Below are positions 5,745 to 19,485 of a stretch of 64,000 nucleotides of DNA, in pieces; the stretch's first letter is position 1; the number at the start of each line of letters is the position of its first letter. This DNA is from Pseudanabaena sp. PCC 6802 (GTDB lineage Bacteria; Cyanobacteriota; Cyanobacteriia; Pseudanabaenales; Pseudanabaenaceae): assembly GCF_000332175.1 (NCBI RefSeq), contig NZ_KB235914.1, positions 3,468,868 through 3,532,867 of the forward strand, in the 5' to 3' direction. The translations under genes and the position numbers were made by a program. A model generated the notes under the pieces. That model was not told the origin of the DNA and did no database searches. It was given only the letters and a program-made list of their open reading frames with translations.

Positions 5745-6503
5745 TCAGGATATTAGCATAGACTTACCGTAAGCCTTAATTGACTGCACCTGCAACTCAA
5801 ATAACCCTGCCCTAAATTTAGGGTTGAGATCGCCATCGTACTCAAATTTACTGAGCATGAGTTGCAGAGCATAGATGTTTTGTAGCTCCAAGGGGGGAGC
5901 ATCGCTGACCGTCCGCGCTCGAAATACAGGTACGAACGACGTAAAAGGAATGCAGACATCAATCCAGTTGCGATCGAGTGTATCAAATGAATAGCAGTAA
6001 GCAACACCATCCCATTTGGTTGAGGTACGCAGCATGAACTTATAACGCTGCCCATCACCCTTAACCCTCAGTTCAATGCCATCATAGCCTGCTAAATTAA
6101 TGGGCATCTCGAAGTTACGAGTGCGAACGGAAGCAAATCCGCCCGAGTTATTCGTCGATACATTGCCAGAGAATACCGCAATTCCATCGACAAGTCTAAT
6201 CCCGCTCTCACTCACACCACCCATCACGACATCGTCGAGCGCGCCCCAGATCTCGCTTATATCTTCTGATATTTGGCTGAAGTCAAACACCACTCTTGAT
6301 GTCGAGCGATCTGTAGGTACCTCTGGATGAGGATTAGAGATGCTTTGCTCGCCCATTGAACTGCCCGATCGATTGTCCGCACGAGCGAACTGAAATAATC
6401 TGTAAACTGGATTGGATGTCCCTAACCCAGGAATAGCTTCAAAGTAACACAGAGTTCTGAGGAAGCGTCCCAAGTCCCAGCGATTGGAGTTTTGCTGTGC
6501 CAT
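5745..6503 (-). CDS. CIA30 (complex I intermediate-associated 30) domain protein
   Basis: The open frame extends to 6626, but the start at 6503 (MAQQNSNRWDLGRFL) is preferred. It gives the usual form of this family and removes the overlap with the divergent gene starting at 6564. The protein has 252 residues. A short hydrophobic/aromatic N-terminus is followed by a CIA30/galactose-binding-like beta-sandwich, recognisable by DFSQISEDISEIWGALDDVVMGG, GGFASVRTRNFEMP and the DGIELRVKGDGQRYKFMLR strand. Cyanobacterial members are widespread but their role is not settled; homologs elsewhere assist assembly of complex I. Confidence 0.82.
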   Translation of the reverse strand: MAQQNSNRWDLGRFLRTLCYFEAIPGLGTSNPVYRLFQFARADNRSGSSMGEQSISNPHPEVPTDRSTSRVVFDFSQISEDISEIWGALDDVVMGGVSESGIRLVDGIAVFSGNVSTNNSGGFASVRTRNFEMPINLAGYDGIELRVKGDGQRYKFMLRTSTKWDGVAYCYSFDTLDRNWIDVCIPFTSFVPVFRARTVSDAPPLELQNIYALQLMLSKFEYDGDLNPKFRAGLFELQVQSIKAYGKSMLIS

Positions 6504-11972: not shown

Positions 11973-12941
11973 CTATGCATCTAGCGGGCTGCGTACGCCT
12001 CGCCCCCCGCGATTGAGGACGTGCGTGTAGATCATTGTTGTGCGAATATCTTTGTGCCCCAATAATTCCTGTACGGTGCGGATATCATAGCCATCCTCCA
12101 ATAGATGCGTAGCAAAACTGTGTCGGAGAGTATGACAACTGCCATGTTTAGTAATTCCTGCTTTTCTAATTGCCGCTTTCATAGCACGTTGTAGTGAATC
12201 TTCGTAGATATGATGGCGGCGGACTATCCCAGTGCGGGGATCGATTGAGCGCTTTGCTGAGGGGAATACAAATTGCCACGACCATTCGCGATTTGCATTT
12301 GGATACTTTTGTTCTAATGCATTGGGTAAATATACTGCTCCAAATCCTTGTGCTAAATCCCTGTGATGTATGAGTTTGGCTTTTTCCAGTTGCAGCTTGA
12401 GCGGGATAATTGTTGAGGTTGGCAGCATTGTCATGCGGTCTTTATTGCCTTTACCGCTACGTACTATAATCTGTCGATACTCAAAGTCGATATCCTTTAC
12501 CCGTAGATTTAAGCACTCTGTAAGACGCAGTCCTGACCCGTAAAGCAAACTCGCCATCAGGTGATACTCATCCTCCAAATTGTCTAGAATAGCTTTCACT
12601 TCAGTGCGGGTAAACACGACAGGAAGTCTTTGCGGACGTTTGGCAGGCTCAATTCCATCCAAGAAGGGTAAGTCAATTTGTAAAACTTGCTGATACAAAA
12701 ACAAAAGTGCATTCCGTGCCACATTTTGCGTTGATGCTGCTACATTCTTGTCTATTGCCAAATGAGAAAGGTAAGACCGAATTTCAGGTACTCCCATATC
12801 CTTGGGGTGGCGTTTGTCATGGAAGAGGATGAAGTCTTTAGCGTAGTAAACATAAGATTTTTCGGTCTTTAAGCTCATGTGCTTGAGACGAATAACTTGA
12901 CGTACGCGATCGAGCAATCGTGGTGGTTGTGGCTCAGTCAT
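11973..12941 (-). CDS. intI: Integron integrase (tyrosine recombinase IntI)
   Basis: 322-residue tyrosine recombinase that moves gene cassettes between attC and attI. The start at 12941 ([13 protein letters not shown]) is preferred over the longer frame from 12986. An N-terminal SAM-like core-binding domain occupies residues 1-95. In the catalytic domain the Arg is in [14 protein letters not shown], the second box in [12 protein letters not shown], and the tyrosine in [12 protein letters not shown]. The extra helix specific to IntI, between boxes II and III, is present ([23 protein letters not shown]), which separates it from XerC/D. The terminus RGVRSPLD is also IntI-like. No frameshift or stop interrupts it. 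It reads away from the cassettes. Confidence 0.95.
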
Positions 12942-13194
12942 CTTAAAATGCGGTAATACATGCTTTCTAGCGGTACTAGACCGCACTAAGCTGTATTATT
13001 CCCAAATTCCGATGTGTTATACCGCACTGTGCGGTTAAAGATTCTTTACACAACTATTAGACCGCAATATGCAGTAAAACGCATACTAAACAGCAATATG
13101 CTCTAAAGACTGCTCTCCAGCATTACTAGACTGCTAAATACGGTAATATGCTCCAATTCAGTGTGCTATACTACACTTGGCGGTTTAATATATA
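12942..13194. promoter_or_regulatory. attI/intI promoter region with six spaced imperfect palindromes
   Basis: Between the intI start and the attI crossover lie six related 15-16-base imperfect palindromes with core GACCGCAATATGCGGT. They are at 12979-12994, 13021-13035 (nearly perfect, ACCGCACTGTGCGGT), 13060-13075, 13089-13104, 13129-13144 and 13170-13184. Most are preceded by TACTA or TATTA. Centres are spaced about 42, 39, 29, 40 and 41 bases apart, and a half-site (ATGCGGTAATA) sits at 12948-12958. The region has no gene. Integrase-binding direct repeats and regulator operators are known in some attI sites; this regular array could be either. Confidence 0.65.
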
Positions 13195-13318: not shown

Positions 13319-14251
13319 GTGCTAAGAAAGGACGGGAAAAAACTTGAGGAGCTTGTTGCTGAAATTGAGAAAATTGTGGCAAGAGCTGGGAAAACCGTAG
13401 AAGTCAATAAACGTTTTTATGATGATCAAGGTGTTCAAGTAGCTGAATTTGATATATTTATCACTTTTTTATCAGATCTAGGTGGTCACAAGTGGCTAAT
13501 TGAATGCCGGGATCGTCCTTCTCAAGGTGCTGCCCCCGGAAGCTGGATAGAACAACTCATTGGGCGGAAATTTTTGCACCAATTAGATCGTGTCATTGCT
13601 GTCTCAACGACAGATTTTTCTCCTGGGGCAAAACACTGGGCAGAGGAAGGAAGTATCGAATTAAGAACGGTCAACCAAGTAGAAACGCCAGAAAGCTGGC
13701 TATGTAATGCTGTAACTTTCCTGAGTAGAACAGGTACTTTTAATAATTGCAAAGTGAACTTACTCAATAGAGGATTAGAGCAGAGCTATATTGACAATAT
13801 TGTAGAAAATATGCCGTCTAATCCAGACGAGATACTCATATCTTTTGAGAAAATAGATACTCGTCTACTTCCAAGAGAGTTGTTTCAAAACCTTTGCTTT
13901 GATGATAAAAATATGATTTATAAAAATATAACTCCTGGAACATCTAAATCGATTCATATCACTTGTCCTCCTGACCTCGAAAGAACTGGACTGATGTTCA
14001 TAGAATTTGACAATTTTAAAGTCCCGTTGGAAAACATAGAGTTTTCTGGCGAGGCAAGAATTGAGATGAATACAGTTCCCTTTGACAAGATAGAAATTTA
14101 TAAGCACAGCAAGGAAGCGGGGTTTATTGGTCAGAGAATGACTTGTTTGTTTGAAACTGATCAAGAAAAAATGAAGTTTCAATTCTATGATGTTCAAGTA
14201 GAGGAGGGTCGCCAAATTGCAATAAAAGCGGATAAGGAATCAAAAAACTAA
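13319..14251 (+). CDS. Cassette 1: Mrr/PD-(D/E)XK nuclease-like protein
   Basis: 310 residues from GTG at 13319; the frame is open to 13289 but has no ATG. The first 130 residues resemble the Mrr-like restriction endonuclease fold: a helix (KLEELVAEIEKIVARAG), a strand with the acidic residue in AEFDIFI, and the core strand KWLIECRDRPSQG. There, E-x-R takes the place of the usual E-x-K. A helix WIEQLIGRKFLHQLDRVIAVS follows, matching the Q-containing helix of this fold. Residues 150-310 are a beta-rich region I do not recognise. Codon use is more A/T-rich than the flanking housekeeping genes, as expected of a cassette gene. A DNA-targeting defence role is an inference; the Lys-to-Arg change could weaken activity. 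Confidence 0.65.
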   Translation: MLRKDGKKLEELVAEIEKIVARAGKTVEVNKRFYDDQGVQVAEFDIFITFLSDLGGHKWLIECRDRPSQGAAPGSWIEQLIGRKFLHQLDRVIAVSTTDFSPGAKHWAEEGSIELRTVNQVETPESWLCNAVTFLSRTGTFNNCKVNLLNRGLEQSYIDNIVENMPSNPDEILISFEKIDTRLLPRELFQNLCFDDKNMIYKNITPGTSKSIHITCPPDLERTGLMFIEFDNFKVPLENIEFSGEARIEMNTVPFDKIEIYKHSKEAGFIGQRMTCLFETDQEKMKFQFYDVQVEEGRQIAIKADKESKN

Positions 14252-14292: not shown

Positions 14293-14379
14293 GGCTAACA
14301 ACCCTGCTGGAGCGGACTGACGAGAGATCTTGGTTGTGTTGTAGAGGTCACTTTCAGCCGCTCAGCAGGAACGTTATAC
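14293..14379 (+). other. attC1 (cassette 1 recombination site)
   Basis: R'' GGCTAAC 14293-14299, L'' CCTGCTGGAGCGG 14303-14315, L' CCGCTCAGCAGG 14358-14369, R' GTTATAC 14373-14379. L'' pairs with L' along 12 bases with one extra G left unpaired in L'', the extrahelical base that sets attC polarity. Total 87 bases, in the usual attC range. Confidence 0.88.
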
Positions 14380-14680
14380 GTACCGATATCGCCGATTGAG
14401 TCCGTTGAGATTGTCTGAGTGCGATCGCAAACAAGCAAACAAGACGTATCGGTTACGTTTGCAAGTCCCAACAGGGGATCGGCGATCGCATAGATAAGCA
14501 GTTCGAGATTAGGCAAGCATAACGGGTCTGTTTTCTGCTCAAGTTCGGACAGTGGATCGGGGCGATCGCAAGAGATAAATAATTGTGAAGCGATCGGTGT
14601 ATAACACATCATTGGAGCGGAAAATATTGAGATATTGCGGTTTTGAGTTGGGGGCGATCGCTTACCGCTCAATTTAGCCG
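14374..14680 (+). mobile_element. Cassette 2: 307-bp cassette without a convincing gene (copy 1)
   Basis: Begins TTATACGTACCG and ends with the G of GTTAGGC. It contains HIP1 sites but no plus-strand reading frame of useful length. A minus-strand frame runs through it, but starts inside the attC stem and changes its C-terminus outside the cassette, so it is probably not a gene. The segment recurs with the same length at 15338-15644. Possible contents are a promoter, a small RNA or a spacer; none can be shown here. Confidence 0.85.
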
Positions 14681-14686
14681 TTAGGC
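14599..14686 (+). other. attC2
   Basis: R'' GTATAAC 14599-14605, L'' ATTGGAGCGG near 14611-14620, L' CCGCTCAAT near 14665-14673, R' GTTAGGC 14680-14686. ATTGAGCGG pairs fully, with one unpaired G in L'', as in attC1. R'' is the exact complement of GTTATAC, the joint formed when cassette 2 closes into a circle. Confidence 0.85.
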
Positions 14687-14723
14687 AGAGTTTGTGAGAG
14701 CTTAATGGGAGATTTTTGGGGTG

Positions 14724-15215
14724 ATGGAGAAGTTAGTGGAAATAGATAAAACAAAATTAATCATTCGCAAAGGAAATAGAAATGATATAGATGCAATAAC
14801 CAAATTTAATATTTATGGTTCCGAAGAAACTACTAATCAATCCCCTCCTGTTGATGACATTAAGGTTGGTGTTTCATTTGTTTTGCGTGGTCATCAAGAC
14901 TTTTATCTAGTAGCAAAGTACGAAAATGAATATGTTGGTCAATGCAAGGTGCACCACCATTGGTATGACTGGTATGATGCTTCCTTCTGGTGGGTTGAGC
15001 ATTTATATGTAGCAAAGAAGTACAGGAAACAGGGGATAGCATCAATGATTTTAGACGAGGTTTCTAAGCTTGCAAAAGAAAATGGCTATGTAAAAAAAAT
15101 TCTTTTACATGTACATCAAGATAATCATCTTGCTATAAAGGCATATGAAAAATGGGGATTTGACATCCATGACAATAAATTGATGTATTGGAGTATCACT
15201 AATGGTCTAAGTTAA
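14724..15215 (+). CDS. Cassette 3: GNAT family N-acetyltransferase
   Basis: 163-residue single-domain acetyltransferase that would move an acetyl group from acetyl-CoA to a small molecule or protein. ATG at 14724 is chosen; an adjacent GTG at 14721 is the alternative. Visible GNAT elements are an N-terminal LIIRKGNRNDIDAI strand-helix, the central strands (FYLVAKYENEYVGQCKV; WWVEHLYVAKKY), the acetyl-CoA pyrophosphate loop RKQGIAS in motif A, and the closing helix LAIKAYEKWGFDIHD. Acetyltransferases are among the commonest cassette cargo, often giving antibiotic resistance or toxin functions; the substrate here is unknown. The gene is A/T-rich compared with chromosomal neighbours and starts 44 bases into its cassette. 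Confidence 0.88.
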   Translation: MEKLVEIDKTKLIIRKGNRNDIDAITKFNIYGSEETTNQSPPVDDIKVGVSFVLRGHQDFYLVAKYENEYVGQCKVHHHWYDWYDASFWWVEHLYVAKKYRKQGIASMILDEVSKLAKENGYVKKILLHVHQDNHLAIKAYEKWGFDIHDNKLMYWSITNGLS

Positions 15216-15251: not shown

Positions 15252-15343
15252 GCCTAACAAGCGCGTGCACTCGGAACGGAGGTTTAAGCTATCGGTTATG
15301 ATGCAAAAATTGTCGCCGTCCGGTGACGCGCAGGGCGTTATAC
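15252..15343 (+). other. attC3
   Basis: R'' GCCTAAC 15252-15258, L'' GCGCGTGCACTCGG near 15261-15274, L' CCGGTGACGCGC near 15320-15331, R' GTTATAC 15337-15343. The stem GCGCGTCACCGG forms with two unpaired bases in L''. R'' complements TTAGGC at the left end of cassette 3. Confidence 0.85.
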
Positions 15344-15644
15344 GTACCGATATCGCCGATTGAGTCCGTTGAGATTGTCTGAGTGCGATCGCAAACAAGC
15401 AAACAAGACGTATCGGTTACGTTTGCAAGTCCCAACAGGGGATCGGCGATCGCATAGATAAGCAGTTCGAGATTAGGCAAGCATAACGGGTCTGTTTTCT
15501 GCTCAAGTTCGGACAGTGGATCGGGGCGATCGCAAGAGATAAATAATTGTGAAGCGATCGGTGTATAACACATCATTGGAGCGGAAAATATTGAGATATT
15601 GCGGTTTTGAGTTGGGGGCGATCGCTTACCGCTCAATTTAGCCG
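15338..15644 (+). mobile_element. Cassette 4: second copy of the 307-bp cassette
   Basis: Same length and, as far as I can read, the same sequence as 14374-14680. The match starts at TTATACGTACCG and ends at GCCG before TTAGG, that is, precisely at the cassette joints, while flanking bases differ (AACG versus GGCG on the left, CAGAG versus TGGCT on the right). Duplication through excision or re-integration by IntI explains this; ordinary tandem duplication would not respect these limits. Confidence 0.88.
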
Positions 15645-15650
15645 TTAGGT
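15563..15650 (+). other. attC4
   Basis: Same as attC2 with R'' GTATAAC 15563-15569; R' here is GTTAGGT 15644-15650 because the last six bases belong to cassette 5. Confidence 0.85.
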
Positions 15651-15758
15651 GGCTTCAATCCTTGGTGAAGACTTAACTTCATAGTTATCGATGAGCGTCC
15701 TGCATTAAGATATCGAATATACTTCTCTGTAGGCTTTCTGAAGGAACTTTCTGACTAG

Positions 15759-17729
15759 ATGCAGTTACTTGAGCACAAGTTAAATATCTCGGATCTCTTG
15801 AATGCTCTTTGGCATGAAACTTTGGGGAATCCCAATATTTGCATCGCTGTTCTAGATGGATCCGTCGATCTGTCTCATCCTTGCTTCAAGGGTTCTGACC
15901 TGACTGAGATACAAACTTTGGTGTCGGAGCGTTCCGGTACAGGCTATGCTTTGCAACACGGGACTCACGTTGCCAGCGTCATCTTTGGACAACACGATAG
16001 CCCTGTACGGGGAATTGCCCCTCAATGCCGGGGCTTAATCGTTCCGGTGTTCGCCGAGGGAGTAAAAGGTTCGCTTGCCCCCTGCTCCCAGCTTGACCTG
16101 GCAAGAGCCATTACCCAAGCCGTCGAGCAGGGAGCCAACATCATTAATATTAGTGGCGGTCAGATGACCCAATCGGGTCAGGCTGACTCTTTATTGGTTC
16201 GAGCCGTCCAGTTATGCGCTGAGAACAACGTGCTAATCGTGGCAGCAGCAGGCAACGATGGCTGCCAGTGCCTTCACCTGCCAGCAGCTTTGCCGACGGT
16301 TCTGGCTGTAGGGGCAATGGACGCTCAGGGATTGCCTCTCGATTTTAGTAATTGGGGCGATGCCTATCAAAACCAAGGTATCCTCGCCCCAGGCGAAAAC
16401 ATTTTGGGGGCAGTTTCTGGCGGCGGCACAGCCCTGAAAAGTGGCACTAGCTTCGCCACTCCCATCGTCTCTGGTATTGTTGCCCTGCTGTTGAGCCTCC
16501 AACTCAAACAGGGAAAACCGCCAGATCCTCAAGCCGTCCGCACAGCCATTCTCCAGAGTGCTTTGCCTTGCAACCAGCAAATTGCCGAAGATTGCCGCCG
16601 CTTTTTGGCGGGGAGTCTCGATCTTGCCGCCGTAGAAACTATAATCCTTAAAGGAGAGAGAACCCCTATGTCAGAGCTAAATTCCCAAGAAATGCCCCAA
16701 CCAGCAGAGGCGAACAGCACGGGTCAGGTGGAGGCTTCAACTGCCCCGCCAGTCCTAGAAAAACCGATGGTGACTGCCTCAGCCGCCATTTCTTCGCCCA
16801 CCCAGACAATTTCAGCCAACGTACCTGCCGTTACCCCTAGCAGTAGTTCAACTTCGGTTACACCCTCAGAAGGGTGTAGCTGTGGCGGAGGCGGGCCAAT
16901 GCAGTTAGTTTATGCCCTCGGAGAACTGGGTTTCGACTACGGTACCGAAGCTCGTCGAGATTCCTTTACGCAAGCCATCCCGCCTACCACGAACCTACTG
17001 GACTATCTCGCTCAGAATCCCTGGGAGGCACAGTCGCTGATTTGGACACTCAATCTGGATGCCACGCCAATTTACGCGATCATGCCGAAAGGTTCCTTTG
17101 CCTCTGAAACTTACGCTCGGCTTCGCGAATTTTACAGAAACCAAACAAATCCCGTCGAGGAGTCTAATCGCGTTGAGCGAGTCTCAATTCCAGGTTATAT
17201 CGGAGGTAGTATCAGGTTGCTTTCGGGGCAGACCGTTCCCGTTATTATCCCGGAAGTGCGAGGTATGTTCAGTTGGACTGTTCCAGCCTTAATCAACTCG
17301 TTAGTGCCACTTGCAATGCAAGCTGCAACGCAAGCTGCAACAGAATCGGAGAGGACACCACCAACGCAGGAGGAGGTGACAGGTAATCTGACACGTAAGC
17401 TTCAAGAGTATCTGGAGCGTATCTATTACGACTACCGTAACCTGGGCATTACCCCACAGGAACGGGCGCTAAACTTCTCAGCGACCAATGCCTTCCAAGC
17501 GACAGTGGTGATGCTTGATGCAGGAATAGGCGATCTAGCGCTTGACAGCATTACGGTAGAGAAGAGTCCTATTTGTCGTCCCGATTCAGATTGTTACGAC
17601 ATAAAGCTACAGTTTTTTAACCTAGTGGATAACCGAAGATCTGGAAAAGTCTATCGATTCACCATCGATGTCAGCGACGTGATTCCAGTCACTATCGGTA
17701 CGGTCCGCTCATGGTCTATAGCCAGCTAA
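15759..17729 (+). CDS. Cassette 5: PatA/PatG-type cyanobactin maturation protease (S8 family)
   Basis: 656 residues. Residues 20-295 form a subtilisin domain with catalytic Asp33 (AVLDGSVD), His67 (QHGTHVAS), oxyanion Asn166 (AAAGNDG) and Ser231 (SGTSFATP). A Ser/Thr/Pro-rich linker at about 300-370 ends in a Cys/Gly cluster (GCSCGGGG). A C-terminal domain (about 375-656) resembles that shared by PatA and PatG proteins of cyanobactin clusters: GPMQLVYALGELGFDYGTEARRDSF near its start, NLLDYLAQNPWEAQSLIWTLNLD, and an IPGYIGGSIRLLSGQTVPVI strand. In those pathways the proteases cut precursor leaders or join the ends of the core. It lacks a signal peptide, so acts in the cytoplasm. Five small peptide genes follow on the same strand. 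Confidence 0.88.
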   Translation: MQLLEHKLNISDLLNALWHETLGNPNICIAVLDGSVDLSHPCFKGSDLTEIQTLVSERSGTGYALQHGTHVASVIFGQHDSPVRGIAPQCRGLIVPVFAEGVKGSLAPCSQLDLARAITQAVEQGANIINISGGQMTQSGQADSLLVRAVQLCAENNVLIVAAAGNDGCQCLHLPAALPTVLAVGAMDAQGLPLDFSNWGDAYQNQGILAPGENILGAVSGGGTALKSGTSFATPIVSGIVALLLSLQLKQGKPPDPQAVRTAILQSALPCNQQIAEDCRRFLAGSLDLAAVETIILKGERTPMSELNSQEMPQPAEANSTGQVEASTAPPVLEKPMVTASAAISSPTQTISANVPAVTPSSSSTSVTPSEGCSCGGGGPMQLVYALGELGFDYGTEARRDSFTQAIPPTTNLLDYLAQNPWEAQSLIWTLNLDATPIYAIMPKGSFASETYARLREFYRNQTNPVEESNRVERVSIPGYIGGSIRLLSGQTVPVIIPEVRGMFSWTVPALINSLVPLAMQAATQAATESERTPPTQEEVTGNLTRKLQEYLERIYYDYRNLGITPQERALNFSATNAFQATVVMLDAGIGDLALDSITVEKSPICRPDSDCYDIKLQFFNLVDNRRSGKVYRFTIDVSDVIPVTIGTVRSWSIAS

Positions 17730-17847
17730 TAAAACCGTAACCGTTCACTCCCCCCCTACTTATCAACGAGAGAATAAGACGTTCGCCAATTTTTCAGAGG
17801 GGGGTGTGAATAATTGCAATAAAACCCCATTGGGAGGAGAATCAATA

Positions 17848-18024
17848 ATGCTATTGCCAATACAAGCACCACCAAAAATCAGAAAAGTCAGCCCGACAAA
17901 AATCTTAGGCGTGATGGCAGGGATTAATCCATCAAACTGGAAGTTGCGATGCGATCTCTGCTGTGAAGCGGGTGGGGGAGCAGTTTGTAATTCCATTCTT
18001 CCAGGCTGTGTTTGTCCGCTATGA
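17848..18024 (+). CDS. Cassette 5: Cys-rich precursor-like peptide 1
   Basis: 58 residues from ATG at 17848, preceded by a strong ribosome site (GGGAGGAGA, 7 bases before ATG). An earlier in-frame ATG at 17806 has no such site. The leader begins MLLPIQAPPKIRKVSPTKI, a divergent form of the MKLPIQAQPV leader of the later peptides. The C-terminal part has six Cys, including the pair LCC and a CVC near the end, and a Gly-Gly-Gly turn. It lies 118 bases after the protease gene. Likely substrate of the protease; not recognised as a named family. Confidence 0.7.
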   Translation: MLLPIQAPPKIRKVSPTKILGVMAGINPSNWKLRCDLCCEAGGGAVCNSILPGCVCPL

Positions 18025-18060
18025 AGCATAACTTGAGCTACACAACAGGAGGAAGTTACT

Positions 18061-18438
18061 ATGTCCATAAAATGTGTGAGGAAGTTTAGTCAGATTGTCG
18101 AGAATAATACAGAGATTCAAAAGAGTCTAGAAGCAAAGACAGATCGAGAAAGTTTAATAAATCTCGCTGTGCAGATTGGTTCTGAAATAGGCTTGAGTTT
18201 CACAGCCGACGAGGTAAACGAATATTATACAGAAGAGAGGAGAAAAATTGAAAGAGCGTCTAACAGTATCTTTCCGGCGATTCTTAGCAATACGATTAGA
18301 TTTCTCCAAACAACAATCTCAGCATTCCCCCTTGCAGGTGGGATGCGTGTCCCACCAGTTGATACAGCCTCCAGCATTTGCGATAAACTGCCGCAGCACT
18401 TGGCACGTTTAATATGTGAAAAAGTTGTAAATTCCTAA
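18061..18438 (+). CDS. Cassette 5: Nif11-like leader peptide protein
   Basis: 125 residues, with ribosome site AGGAGGAA before ATG 18061. Residues 5-60 match the Nif11 leader pattern (FSQIVENNTEIQKSL, then RESLINLAVQIGSEIGLSFTADEVNEYY), used as a leader in several RiPP classes. The tail from about residue 85 contains AGGMRVPPVDTASSICDKLP with a Gly-Gly pair and only two Cys. Unlike the other peptides it has no LPIQAQPV leader. It could be a precursor of a second type or a helper protein that uses the Nif11 fold for recognition. Confidence 0.7.
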   Translation: MSIKCVRKFSQIVENNTEIQKSLEAKTDRESLINLAVQIGSEIGLSFTADEVNEYYTEERRKIERASNSIFPAILSNTIRFLQTTISAFPLAGGMRVPPVDTASSICDKLPQHLARLICEKVVNS

Positions 18439-18451
18439 AGGAGCAATCACC

Positions 18452-18670
18452 ATGAAACTTCCGATTCAAGCCCAACCCGTCATGAGAGGAGTTAGTTCCT
18501 CAAAACTTGCAGGCAAGACAATTACCCCTTCTGAATGTAGTTATTTGCGTTGTGGCGCAAAAGTCTTAGAGTGTGCATCCGCTTGCTACGAAGGTGGAGT
18601 GGCTGCCTGTCTAGCCTGTCTGGGTCCTTCTTATGAAGCTTGTAAAGACTGCTTCAGCGATATCTTCTAA
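18452..18670 (+). CDS. Cassette 5: Cys-rich precursor-like peptide 2
   Basis: 72 residues, ribosome site AAGGAGC before ATG 18452. The leader is MKLPIQAQPVMRGVSSSKLA followed by a Thr/Pro/Ser stretch. Core: eight Cys, with the spacing C-x3-C-x7-C-x2-C-x7-C-x2-C in its second half. The same scaffold recurs in the last peptide of the cassette. Leader residues LP-x-Q-x-QPV-x-R match the start of cyanobactin (PatE-type) leaders, but the LAELSEEAL heterocyclase-recognition segment is absent. Confidence 0.75.
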   Translation: MKLPIQAQPVMRGVSSSKLAGKTITPSECSYLRCGAKVLECASACYEGGVAACLACLGPSYEACKDCFSDIF

Positions 18671-18748
18671 TCAAAGTATCCTAGTAGTCAGCTTGCTTTA
18701 CTGGCATAAACTTTCAAAAGTAAACCTCAATAAACAGGAGAAATCACC

Positions 18749-18928
18749 ATGAAGCTTCCCATTCAAGCCCAACCAGTTTTACGTCAATTGAATAACTACA
18801 CTTCTCAACATCAAGGCATCCTGCCATCTGCCAGCAAGTGTTGCGGTAGTGATGAATATTGTTTAGGTTCTTGTATATGTTTCTTGGGAGACTGTAGTTG
18901 TGCTGGTGCGTGCGTTCCTAAACTGTAA
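18749..18928 (+). CDS. Cassette 5: Cys-rich precursor-like peptide 3
   Basis: A 59-residue gene with ribosome site CAGGAGAAATCACC before ATG 18749. Leader MKLPIQAQPVLRQLNNYTS, then a 10-residue spacer and a core with eight Cys. The core begins KCCGSDEYC and continues CICF, CSC and AC, ending CVPKL. The Cys spacing differs from peptides 2 and 4, so the core has diverged while the leader DNA is nearly unchanged. This is the usual sign of a precursor family that shares one processing enzyme. Confidence 0.78.
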   Translation: MKLPIQAQPVLRQLNNYTSQHQGILPSASKCCGSDEYCLGSCICFLGDCSCAGACVPKL

Positions 18929-18991
18929 ACAGATCGTGTTTGTTGAGTTTCCATTTTCACAAATTAACCTTAGAAATCAGGAGAAAGAATC

Positions 18992-19213
18992 ATGAAACTT
19001 CCCGTTCAAGCCCAACCAGTACTGCGAAATGTCAGCGATACCAAAATAGCCATGACGAATGCAGTGATAGCATCAGGGTGTTCGACTTGGAAAAAAATTG
19101 GCTGTGCTGGTGCAGTAGCAGCCTGTGCAGCAGTCTGCTATGCAAGTGGAGGACTCGCATGTGCGGGTTGTTTTGCCGGTCTAGGGCAGAGCAGTTGCAT
19201 TGATTGCCTATAA
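18992..19213 (+). CDS. Cassette 5: Cys-rich precursor-like peptide 4
   Basis: 73 residues, ribosome site CAGGAGAAAG before ATG 18992. Leader MKLPVQAQPVLRNVSDTKIA. The core starts near residue 30 and has eight Cys: C-x7-C, then C-x3-C-x7-C-x2-C-x8-C-x2-C, ending CIDCL. It contains a hydrophobic Ala/Gly/Val stretch (CAGAVAACAAVC), resembling membrane-active bacteriocins. The Cys scaffold parallels peptide 2 with one extra spacer residue. Last gene of the cassette. Confidence 0.78.
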   Translation: MKLPVQAQPVLRNVSDTKIAMTNAVIASGCSTWKKIGCAGAVAACAAVCYASGGLACAGCFAGLGQSSCIDCL

Positions 19214-19236
19214 AGGATCGAAATTTTTAAAATTTG

Positions 19237-19281
19237 GAGATTGGGGATAGGCAAGATTCATTTCTTGCAGTCCCCAATCTC
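19237..19281 (+). terminator. Strong stem-loop after the last precursor gene
   Basis: GAGATTGGGGA at 19237-19247 pairs perfectly with TCCCCAATCTC at 19271-19281, and an inner GCAAGA/TCTTGC stem continues it. It lies 24 bases after the final peptide stop and before attC5. No clear T-run follows, so it may be a terminator or an mRNA-stabilising structure. Confidence 0.5.
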
Positions 19282-19348
19282 GGTATTAAATAACTCAACA
19301 CAAAAAAATACTACAAAATCAAGTGAAGTTGCGAGTAGCCACAGCGCC

Positions 19349-19435
19349 ACCTAACCAGCGCGTTGCAGCGGACGGAATGGAAACCTTGTTGCTGCATCCA
19401 AGGCGACTTGCCGCCGCTGAACGCAACCGTTAGTG
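19349..19435 (+). other. attC5 (last attC of the array)
   Basis: R'' ACCTAAC 19349-19355, L'' GCGTTGCAGCGG near 19360-19371, L' CCGCTGAACGC near 19414-19424, R' GTTAGTG 19429-19435. The stem GCGTTCAGCGG forms with one unpaired G in L''. R'' complements TTAGGT at 15645, the left end of cassette 5. R' is degenerate, as often at the distal end of an array, where it joins the chromosome. Confidence 0.88.
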
Positions 19436-19485
19436 GATGTGGGATCGGATCCCCCAGACTGGATATAACCCATAGAGTATAAATT

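Follow-up and report, generated by a model that had tools for sequence, protein, structure and literature searches.

The question raised by this locus is what a solitary protease of the cyanobactin type releases when it stands beside a row of small Cys-rich open reading frames (ORFs) and has no macrocyclase alongside. The locus lies in a 64-kb stretch (the window; G000:C5:3468868-3532867) of the 5.6-Mb genome of the cyanobacterium Pseudanabaena sp. PCC 6802, and in it the protease gene is followed by peptide 1 (17848), a Nif11-like ORF (18061) and peptides 2 to 4, in that order (Table 1). The arrangement looks like an overlooked peptide family that is cut free and probably disulphide cross-linked, and the answer that we consider probable is that this is an integron cassette for the release of peptides by a protease alone, with cores that stay linear and are paired through disulphides.

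The protease matched the profile TIGR03895 with 728.8 bits (cut-off 421) and the Pfam domains PF00082, PF18047 and PF18065, and it is the sole TIGR03895 protein over the cut-off in its genome. Its best match in the PDB was 4h6w, an N-terminal cyanobactin protease (6e-118), and residues 384-654 matched 4uvq, the domain of unknown function (DUF) of PatG (6e-59). The macrocyclase insert between the catalytic Asp and His was absent from the window protease. Because 4h6w is the best match, the insert is missing and the protein groups in trees with other single proteases rather than with PatG, the window protease is, by its sequence, of the A type and not a PatG. No C-terminal (G) protease or macrocyclase was found in the cassette, and no YcaO, prenyltransferase or transporter gene either, the only genes there other than the precursors being those of the protease and the Nif11-like ORF; the initial annotation had found no cyclodehydratase, prenyltransferase or transporter here, which is borne out for YcaO, prenyltransferase and transporter. 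The Nif11-like ORF is over the Pfam cut-off (Table 1) and under that of NCBIfam (17.4 against 32.3 bits), and such an ORF also lies downstream of the protease in a relative of the locus (L243, genome G381); the C-terminal SSICxKxPxxLARLICE of the window ORF is conserved in G381. A scan of viral contigs with the window protease gave no relative.

All four precursors follow a three-part plan of a leader beginning LPIQAxPxxR, a stretch with a PatA-like site, and a core that holds all the Cys residues (6, 8, 8 and 8). Peptides 2, 3 and 4 start with MKLP[IV]QAQPV[LM]R and each has a Shine-Dalgarno-like AGGAG upstream of its ATG. This leader had been described earlier in three peptides together with a diverged form in a fourth, and so it was found, the fourth (17848-18024) lying just outside the segment then described. 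The site-like segments (GINPS, TITPS, GILPS and AVIAS) end 15-17 residues past the Arg of the leader motif and were not part of the initial description; they are related to the G(L/V)E(A/P)S that precedes PatA cleavage in known cyanobactin clusters (PMC10885120), but are non-canonical. None of the four peptides contains LAELSEEAL (recognition sequence I, RSI), as had been said of them before. The Cys spacing is C-x4-C-x6-C-x3-C-x7-C-x2-C-x7-C-x2-C in peptide 2 and C-x7-C-x6-C-x3-C-x7-C-x2-C-x8-C-x2-C in peptide 4, and these two cores aligned with a score of 69, shuffles reaching 32 at most, whereas core 3, which is dense in Cys including CC and CxC, did not align to core 2 or core 4 above shuffles; the earlier statement that peptides 2 and 4 have a common scaffold and that peptide 3 differs thus holds. 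The leader DNA of these three paralogues is 78-83% identical, and such conserved leader DNA next to a core that cannot be aligned is typical of precursor genes that have arisen by duplication. The core scaffold of peptide 1, RCDLCCEAGGGAVCNSILPGCVC, recurs across genera as QCKLCCLSGSGVCNTIFPGCSC in G121 and ACDLCCQSGGGIACGAISGCSC in G381, and also at L213 11007 and L243 10187. Pfam and NCBIfam hidden Markov models gave no match over the cut-off to peptides 1-4. An AlphaFold model of peptide 2 made with no alignment was helical with a mean confidence (pLDDT) of 72, and Foldseek found no match to it in the PDB, so that no fold is claimed. Short precursors, a conserved leader, a variable core and an adjoining maturation enzyme are genetic features of a ribosomally synthesised and post-translationally modified peptide (RiPP) system in the broad sense, and all were found here; the modification beyond proteolysis would be the disulphides predicted from the Cys counts below.

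Table 1. Features of the integron and of the peptide cassette, in window coordinates
Feature	Position	Strand	Particulars
Integron integrase IntI	11973-12986	-	TIGR02249 integrase_gron, 467.3 bits (cut-off 265)
Mrr_cat-type nuclease gene of the first cassette	13319-14251
attC-like site ending the first (Mrr_cat-type nuclease) cassette	14294-14379	+	inverted-repeat scan; DNA fold z -3.1
314-bp unit, first copy	14372-14685	+	no clear gene; weak attC-like repeat at its end; borders GTTATAC...CGTTAGG
GNAT acetyltransferase gene	14721-15215
attC-like site ending the GNAT cassette	15253-15343	+	inverted-repeat scan; fold z -1.7
314-bp unit, second copy	15336-15649	+	identity with 14372-14685; directly upstream of the peptide cassette
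Peptide cassette, about 3.8 kb	15650-19436	+	six genes and attC; bounded by the preceding CGTTAGG and attC 19350-19435
PatA-type maturation protease, 656 aa	15759-17729	+	subtilase domain aa 26-268; PatG_D/PatG_C DUF aa 384-652
Precursor peptide 1	17848-18024	+	diverged leader MLLPIQAPPKIR; GINPS site; predicted core 17935-18021, 6 Cys
Nif11-like ORF, 125 aa	18061-18438	+	PF07862, 8.7e-6, 26.4 bits (cut-off 23.8)
Precursor peptide 2, 72 aa	18452-18670	+	leader MKLPIQAQPVMR; TITPS site; predicted core 18533-18667, 8 Cys
Precursor peptide 3, 59 aa	18749-18928	+	leader MKLPIQAQPVLR; GILPS site; predicted core 18830-18925, 8 Cys
Precursor peptide 4, 73 aa	18992-19213	+	leader MKLPVQAQPVLR; AVIAS site; predicted core 19076-19210, 8 Cys
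attC-like site ending the peptide cassette and the array	19350-19435	+	inverted-repeat scan; fold z -1.9

When 390 genomes of the class were searched, 28 had a TIGR03895 protein over the cut-off; plasmids and the genus of G381 supplied further relatives, and up to 20 kb was read around each. This gave, beyond what the initial annotation had reported, 14 more loci in cyanobacteria at which a lone A-type protease has leader peptides adjoining it and no macrocyclase alongside. Single A-type proteases with no neighbouring G gene were found in G381 (two loci, L045 and L243), G073, G087, G121, G176, G237, G513, G516, G555 and G613, and on the plasmids pGLO7428.01 of Gloeocapsa sp. PCC 7428 and pREC1 of Acaryochloris marina MBIC10699; in G040 the end of one A-type protease lies on a contig too short for the absence of G to be judged. 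Locus L210 was dropped as a single-protease locus when its protease fell in the G clade. Ordinary two-protease clusters were also present in the survey. Leader peptides were found near every single A-type protease, and the motif P-x-[QKT]-x2-P-[VIK]-x-R occurred in 37 of 1614 small ORFs within 3.5 kb of such proteases and in 1 of 1364 farther off, an enrichment that is more than chance. The initial description of the leader as cyanobactin-like is therefore upheld, both by the PatA/PatG-family protease that adjoins it and by the way in which the motif tracks the protease in many loci. The leader ORF beside the Gloeocapsa protease is missing from the gene table of the plasmid collection, which is incomplete. 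Some relatives have the canonical PatA site (GMEAS in L243; GVEAS in L206, L212 and L043), and a loose PatA-type site was present in 38 of 47 precursors, where shuffling gave 5.9. Neither RSI nor the C-terminal RSIII (AYDG/SYDG/FAGDD) was found in any of 40 precursors from single-protease loci. A conserved modifying enzyme was looked for near the single proteases and none was found, the neighbours being varied. Among these neighbours, a gene for a patatin-like phospholipase lies directly 3' of the precursors in three loci (L243 11925-13016, L213 11878-13050 and L206 13130-14254, of different families), the L243 copy matching the phospholipase model of cyclic oligonucleotide-based antiphage signalling systems (CBASS) below the cut-off; a glycosyltransferase gene follows the precursors in L041, L042 and L241; genes with a CAP domain stand beside the protease or the precursors in L042, L211 and L241; and a methyltransferase-like gene is near the protease in one locus. 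In the open PMC literature no paper was found that describes protease-only loci.

The same layout was found on Streptomyces plasmids, where a subtilase with a PatG-type DUF (PF18065, 104 and 106 bits) is followed by several small ORFs, one of which reads ...LQMPQQVPPVDRTSARPTGAHSDQSGVEAN-GFLDEWGPKIARGIGGLFG; in L258, L259 and L261 the tandem precursors have the form MPQQxPPVDR ... GVEA with amphipathic cores, and a gene for a BTAD-type regulator adjoins them. G004 and G025, which belong to the same family as the genome of the window, have a split form in which the subtilase and the PatG DUF (PatG_C 123-124 bits, PatG_D 114 bits) are separate genes, with precursors adjoining them whose leader is a different one, KMPGFTAE. 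In these split systems (L262 4116-7690; L263 4347-8799) the subtilase and DUF genes are adjacent and are accompanied by a precursor array, and L263 has a second PatG_C piece at 6089-6496.

The Cys residues were counted with a simple ORF reader in 40 precursors from 14 single-protease loci including the window, the near-copy L045 being left out. All 172 of 172 Cys were within the cores, and every Cys-bearing precursor (32 of 32) had an even number, namely 2, 4, 6, 8 or 10. By comparison, odd numbers occurred in 8 of 18 precursors of heterocyclase-type clusters and in 58 of 142 (41%) of the other ORFs that are 45-110 aa long and have 4 or more Cys. The eight distinct precursors of the split systems all had even numbers too, from 4 to 10 Cys, so that the even numbers were found a second time, independently. 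Pairing of the cysteines would explain even counts, and formation of azoles or lanthionines does not demand evenness. This favours linear products that, as far as the sequences tell, would be disulphide-paired and otherwise unmodified and would be freed by one protease. Of the two possibilities raised initially, disulphide peptides or the use of enzymes encoded elsewhere, the first is thus the one favoured by the even Cys numbers. The Cys-free members have short cores that resemble amphipathic helices (L206, L207 and L212, and L259 of Streptomyces; for example GFFDILKGAAGGALNALG in L207), and such cores need no modification.

Cleavage, disulphide formation, a role for the DUF, export and activity are what we infer from these data, in the following manner. 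The four precursors would be held through their N-terminal LPxQAxPVxR motif, which the protease or its fused DUF may read, since this motif is the one element retained in common by heterocyclase-type, heterocyclase-free and single-protease clusters. We know of no role so far for the PatG-type DUF in cyanobactins. The PatA-type protease would then cut after the G-[IVL]-x-[AP]-S-like site (GINPS|NWK, TITPS|ECS, GILPS|ASK and AVIAS|GCS in peptides 1-4) and free linear cores of 29-45 residues with 6 or 8 Cys each, the Cys pairing as disulphides with neither heterocyclisation nor macrocyclisation of the cores. The products would probably be exported and act on other cells in a bacteriocin-like way, which is the weakest step.

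Several observations weigh against this mechanism. The sites of peptides 2 and 4 are not only non-canonical but have no Gly (TITPS and AVIAS); disulphides require an oxidising place, and the cassette is without a transporter; the paralogues are not independent and the counts come from a simple ORF reader, and the nominal 2e-10 for the even counts is therefore an overstatement; and the isolated PatG DUF gave no convincing binding to PatE (PMC4259220), which bears on the DUF role. Furthermore, the search of the genome for YcaO and LanM genes that the initial annotation had suggested found one YcaO (L044) and one LanM-like gene (C5:1930079), both far from the cassette. An alternative that draws on this last finding, and on the LanM-like gene about 5 kb from the protease in G073, is that enzymes from other parts of the genome first introduce heterocycles or lanthionine bridges into the peptides, which only then are cut by the PatA-type protease. 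We regard it as improbable. The YcaO gene of this genome is in a cluster of its own (L044 5611-14007), 2.7 Mb from the cassette, whose other genes include those of a Nif11-type precursor and an ABC transporter and a cyclase-like gene. Of the 12 genomes that have single A-type loci, 6 are without YcaO (G073, G087, G237, G513, G516 and G555; G579, the genome of L210, was excluded), and LanC-like proteins are absent from 6 of 10. Because half of the 12 genomes are without YcaO, modification in trans is not the general rule, although it may occur in this genome; moreover, the leaders have no RSI, and even numbers of Cys are needed for neither azoles nor lanthionines.

It is less probable still that the protease frees metal-binding or redox-active peptides that stay within the cell like metallothioneins. 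The dense Cys of peptide 3, with CC and CxC, would suit such a function, but the strictly even counts suit pairing better than metal clusters, and other members of the system have only 2-4 Cys or none.

The protease family and the leader motif, which are held in common with cyanobactins, might also mean that the cassette is a decayed cyanobactin cluster that has lost its D and G genes, and this we consider very unlikely. In a tree without Streptomyces, 13 single proteases formed one group next to canonical PatA (support by the Shimodaira-Hasegawa-like approximate likelihood-ratio test, SH-aLRT, 99) with PatG apart, the L205 protease being nearer to PatA than this group; with Streptomyces included, ten still grouped together (98), three branched alone, and PatA with PatG made up the other side (98). 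A tree of the S8 domain alone, rooted on other subtilases, had long branches and did not settle the order at its base, so that the single proteases are not claimed to have come first. Besides forming groups of their own, they have fixed neighbours and intact reading frames, the same layout is found in another phylum, there are no RSI or RSIII remnants, and the genes are under purifying selection: between the window and G381 the ratio of nonsynonymous to synonymous substitution rates (dN/dS) was 0.12 for the protease and about 0.18, 0.23 and 0.33 for peptides 2-4. Judged by these features the cassette is not a broken cyanobactin cluster. That the protease and the peptides are unrelated cassette neighbours is the least probable of all, since at 15 cyanobacterial loci, and on the Streptomyces plasmids too, ORFs with the motif are grouped next to the protease. 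The protease-only release of disulphide-paired cores thus remains the reading that we prefer, and the protease family and domains, the leader, the site-like segment, the even Cys counts, the purifying selection, the recurrence and the integron setting are shown by the sequences themselves.

This integron setting is given by IntI and the attC-like sites, which bear out the word cassette as it was used initially. The inverted-repeat scan of both strands found 3 attC-like sites in 64 kb, every one at a cassette end, and 0 in 6 shuffles, and their hairpins carry extrahelical bases; the peptide operon is, on these signatures, the last cassette of an integron. Two 314-bp units that are 100% identical precede the GNAT cassette and the peptide cassette; each follows an attC and is perhaps a gene-less or promoter cassette. 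A second full-length IntI is present in the same genome at C1:2190-3131. The G381 protease gene is 96.6% identical in DNA to the window copy (dS 0.107, dN 0.013), and transfer is likely because the window genome and G381 belong to different families; the G381 copy of these genes has no attC-like flanks, by eye, and the G381 genome has no integrase.

If the mechanism proposed is true, the locus is a natural minimal system of leader, cut site and one protease, in which what the cyanobactin DUF and the LPxQxxPVxR motif do becomes testable without a heterocyclase or a macrocyclase. It also draws attention to small genes that tend to be overlooked and whose products are likely to be defined disulphide or amphipathic peptides, and it is one more case in which several genes of a peptide pathway are packed in an integron cassette. 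More tentatively, and with somewhat less confidence than doubt, we suggest that there may be a widespread family of release systems in Cyanobacteriota and Streptomyces, spread via integron cassettes and plasmids, in which a subtilase and a PatG-type DUF, fused or separate, read a short leader, the DUF being the reader, and free otherwise unmodified disulphide-rich or amphipathic peptides, and of which cyanobactins would be an elaborated branch with macrocyclase and YcaO added.

Compared with known systems, the window shares IntI and attC sites with other integrons, but integron cassettes generally have one ORF and at times two or none (PMC8618304), whereas this one, with six ORFs in about 3.8 kb, is unusually large. 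With Nif11/TOMM (thiazole/oxazole-modified microcin) systems it has in common a Nif11-like ORF, but its four precursors have no Nif11 leader and no YcaO is linked to them. The linear cyanobactins aeruginosamide and viridisamide are described as highly modified, with heterocycle, prenyl and methyl groups; linear products are also predicted for the window, but its cassette has no such modifying enzyme. The cyanobactins of the anacyclamide/piricyclamide type, which have no D gene, likewise have a leader without LAELSEEAL (L189, L190, L191 and L202; MTKKNIRPQQVAPVER...), but they have PatG and a C-terminal FAGDD and make rings (PMC3877893), whereas the window system has neither a PatG nor FAGDD and its products are predicted to be linear. 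At L189, L191, L192, L199, L208 and other cyanobactin loci a short protein with GANYNDP, which we take to be PatC, has a leader-like LPxxSPPVxRP start. To the cyanobactin systems of the patellamide type (PatA, PatD, PatE and PatG), in which 'all clusters feature two proteases' (PMC3877893), the window system is alike in its PatA-type subtilase with a DUF, its LPxQxxPVxR-like leader start and, in a related but non-canonical form, the PatA-type site before the core; it differs in having no G macrocyclase alongside, no D heterocyclase, no RSI and no RSIII, and where cyanobactins are rings of 6-8 aa its cores are predicted to be 29-45 aa long with an even number of Cys.
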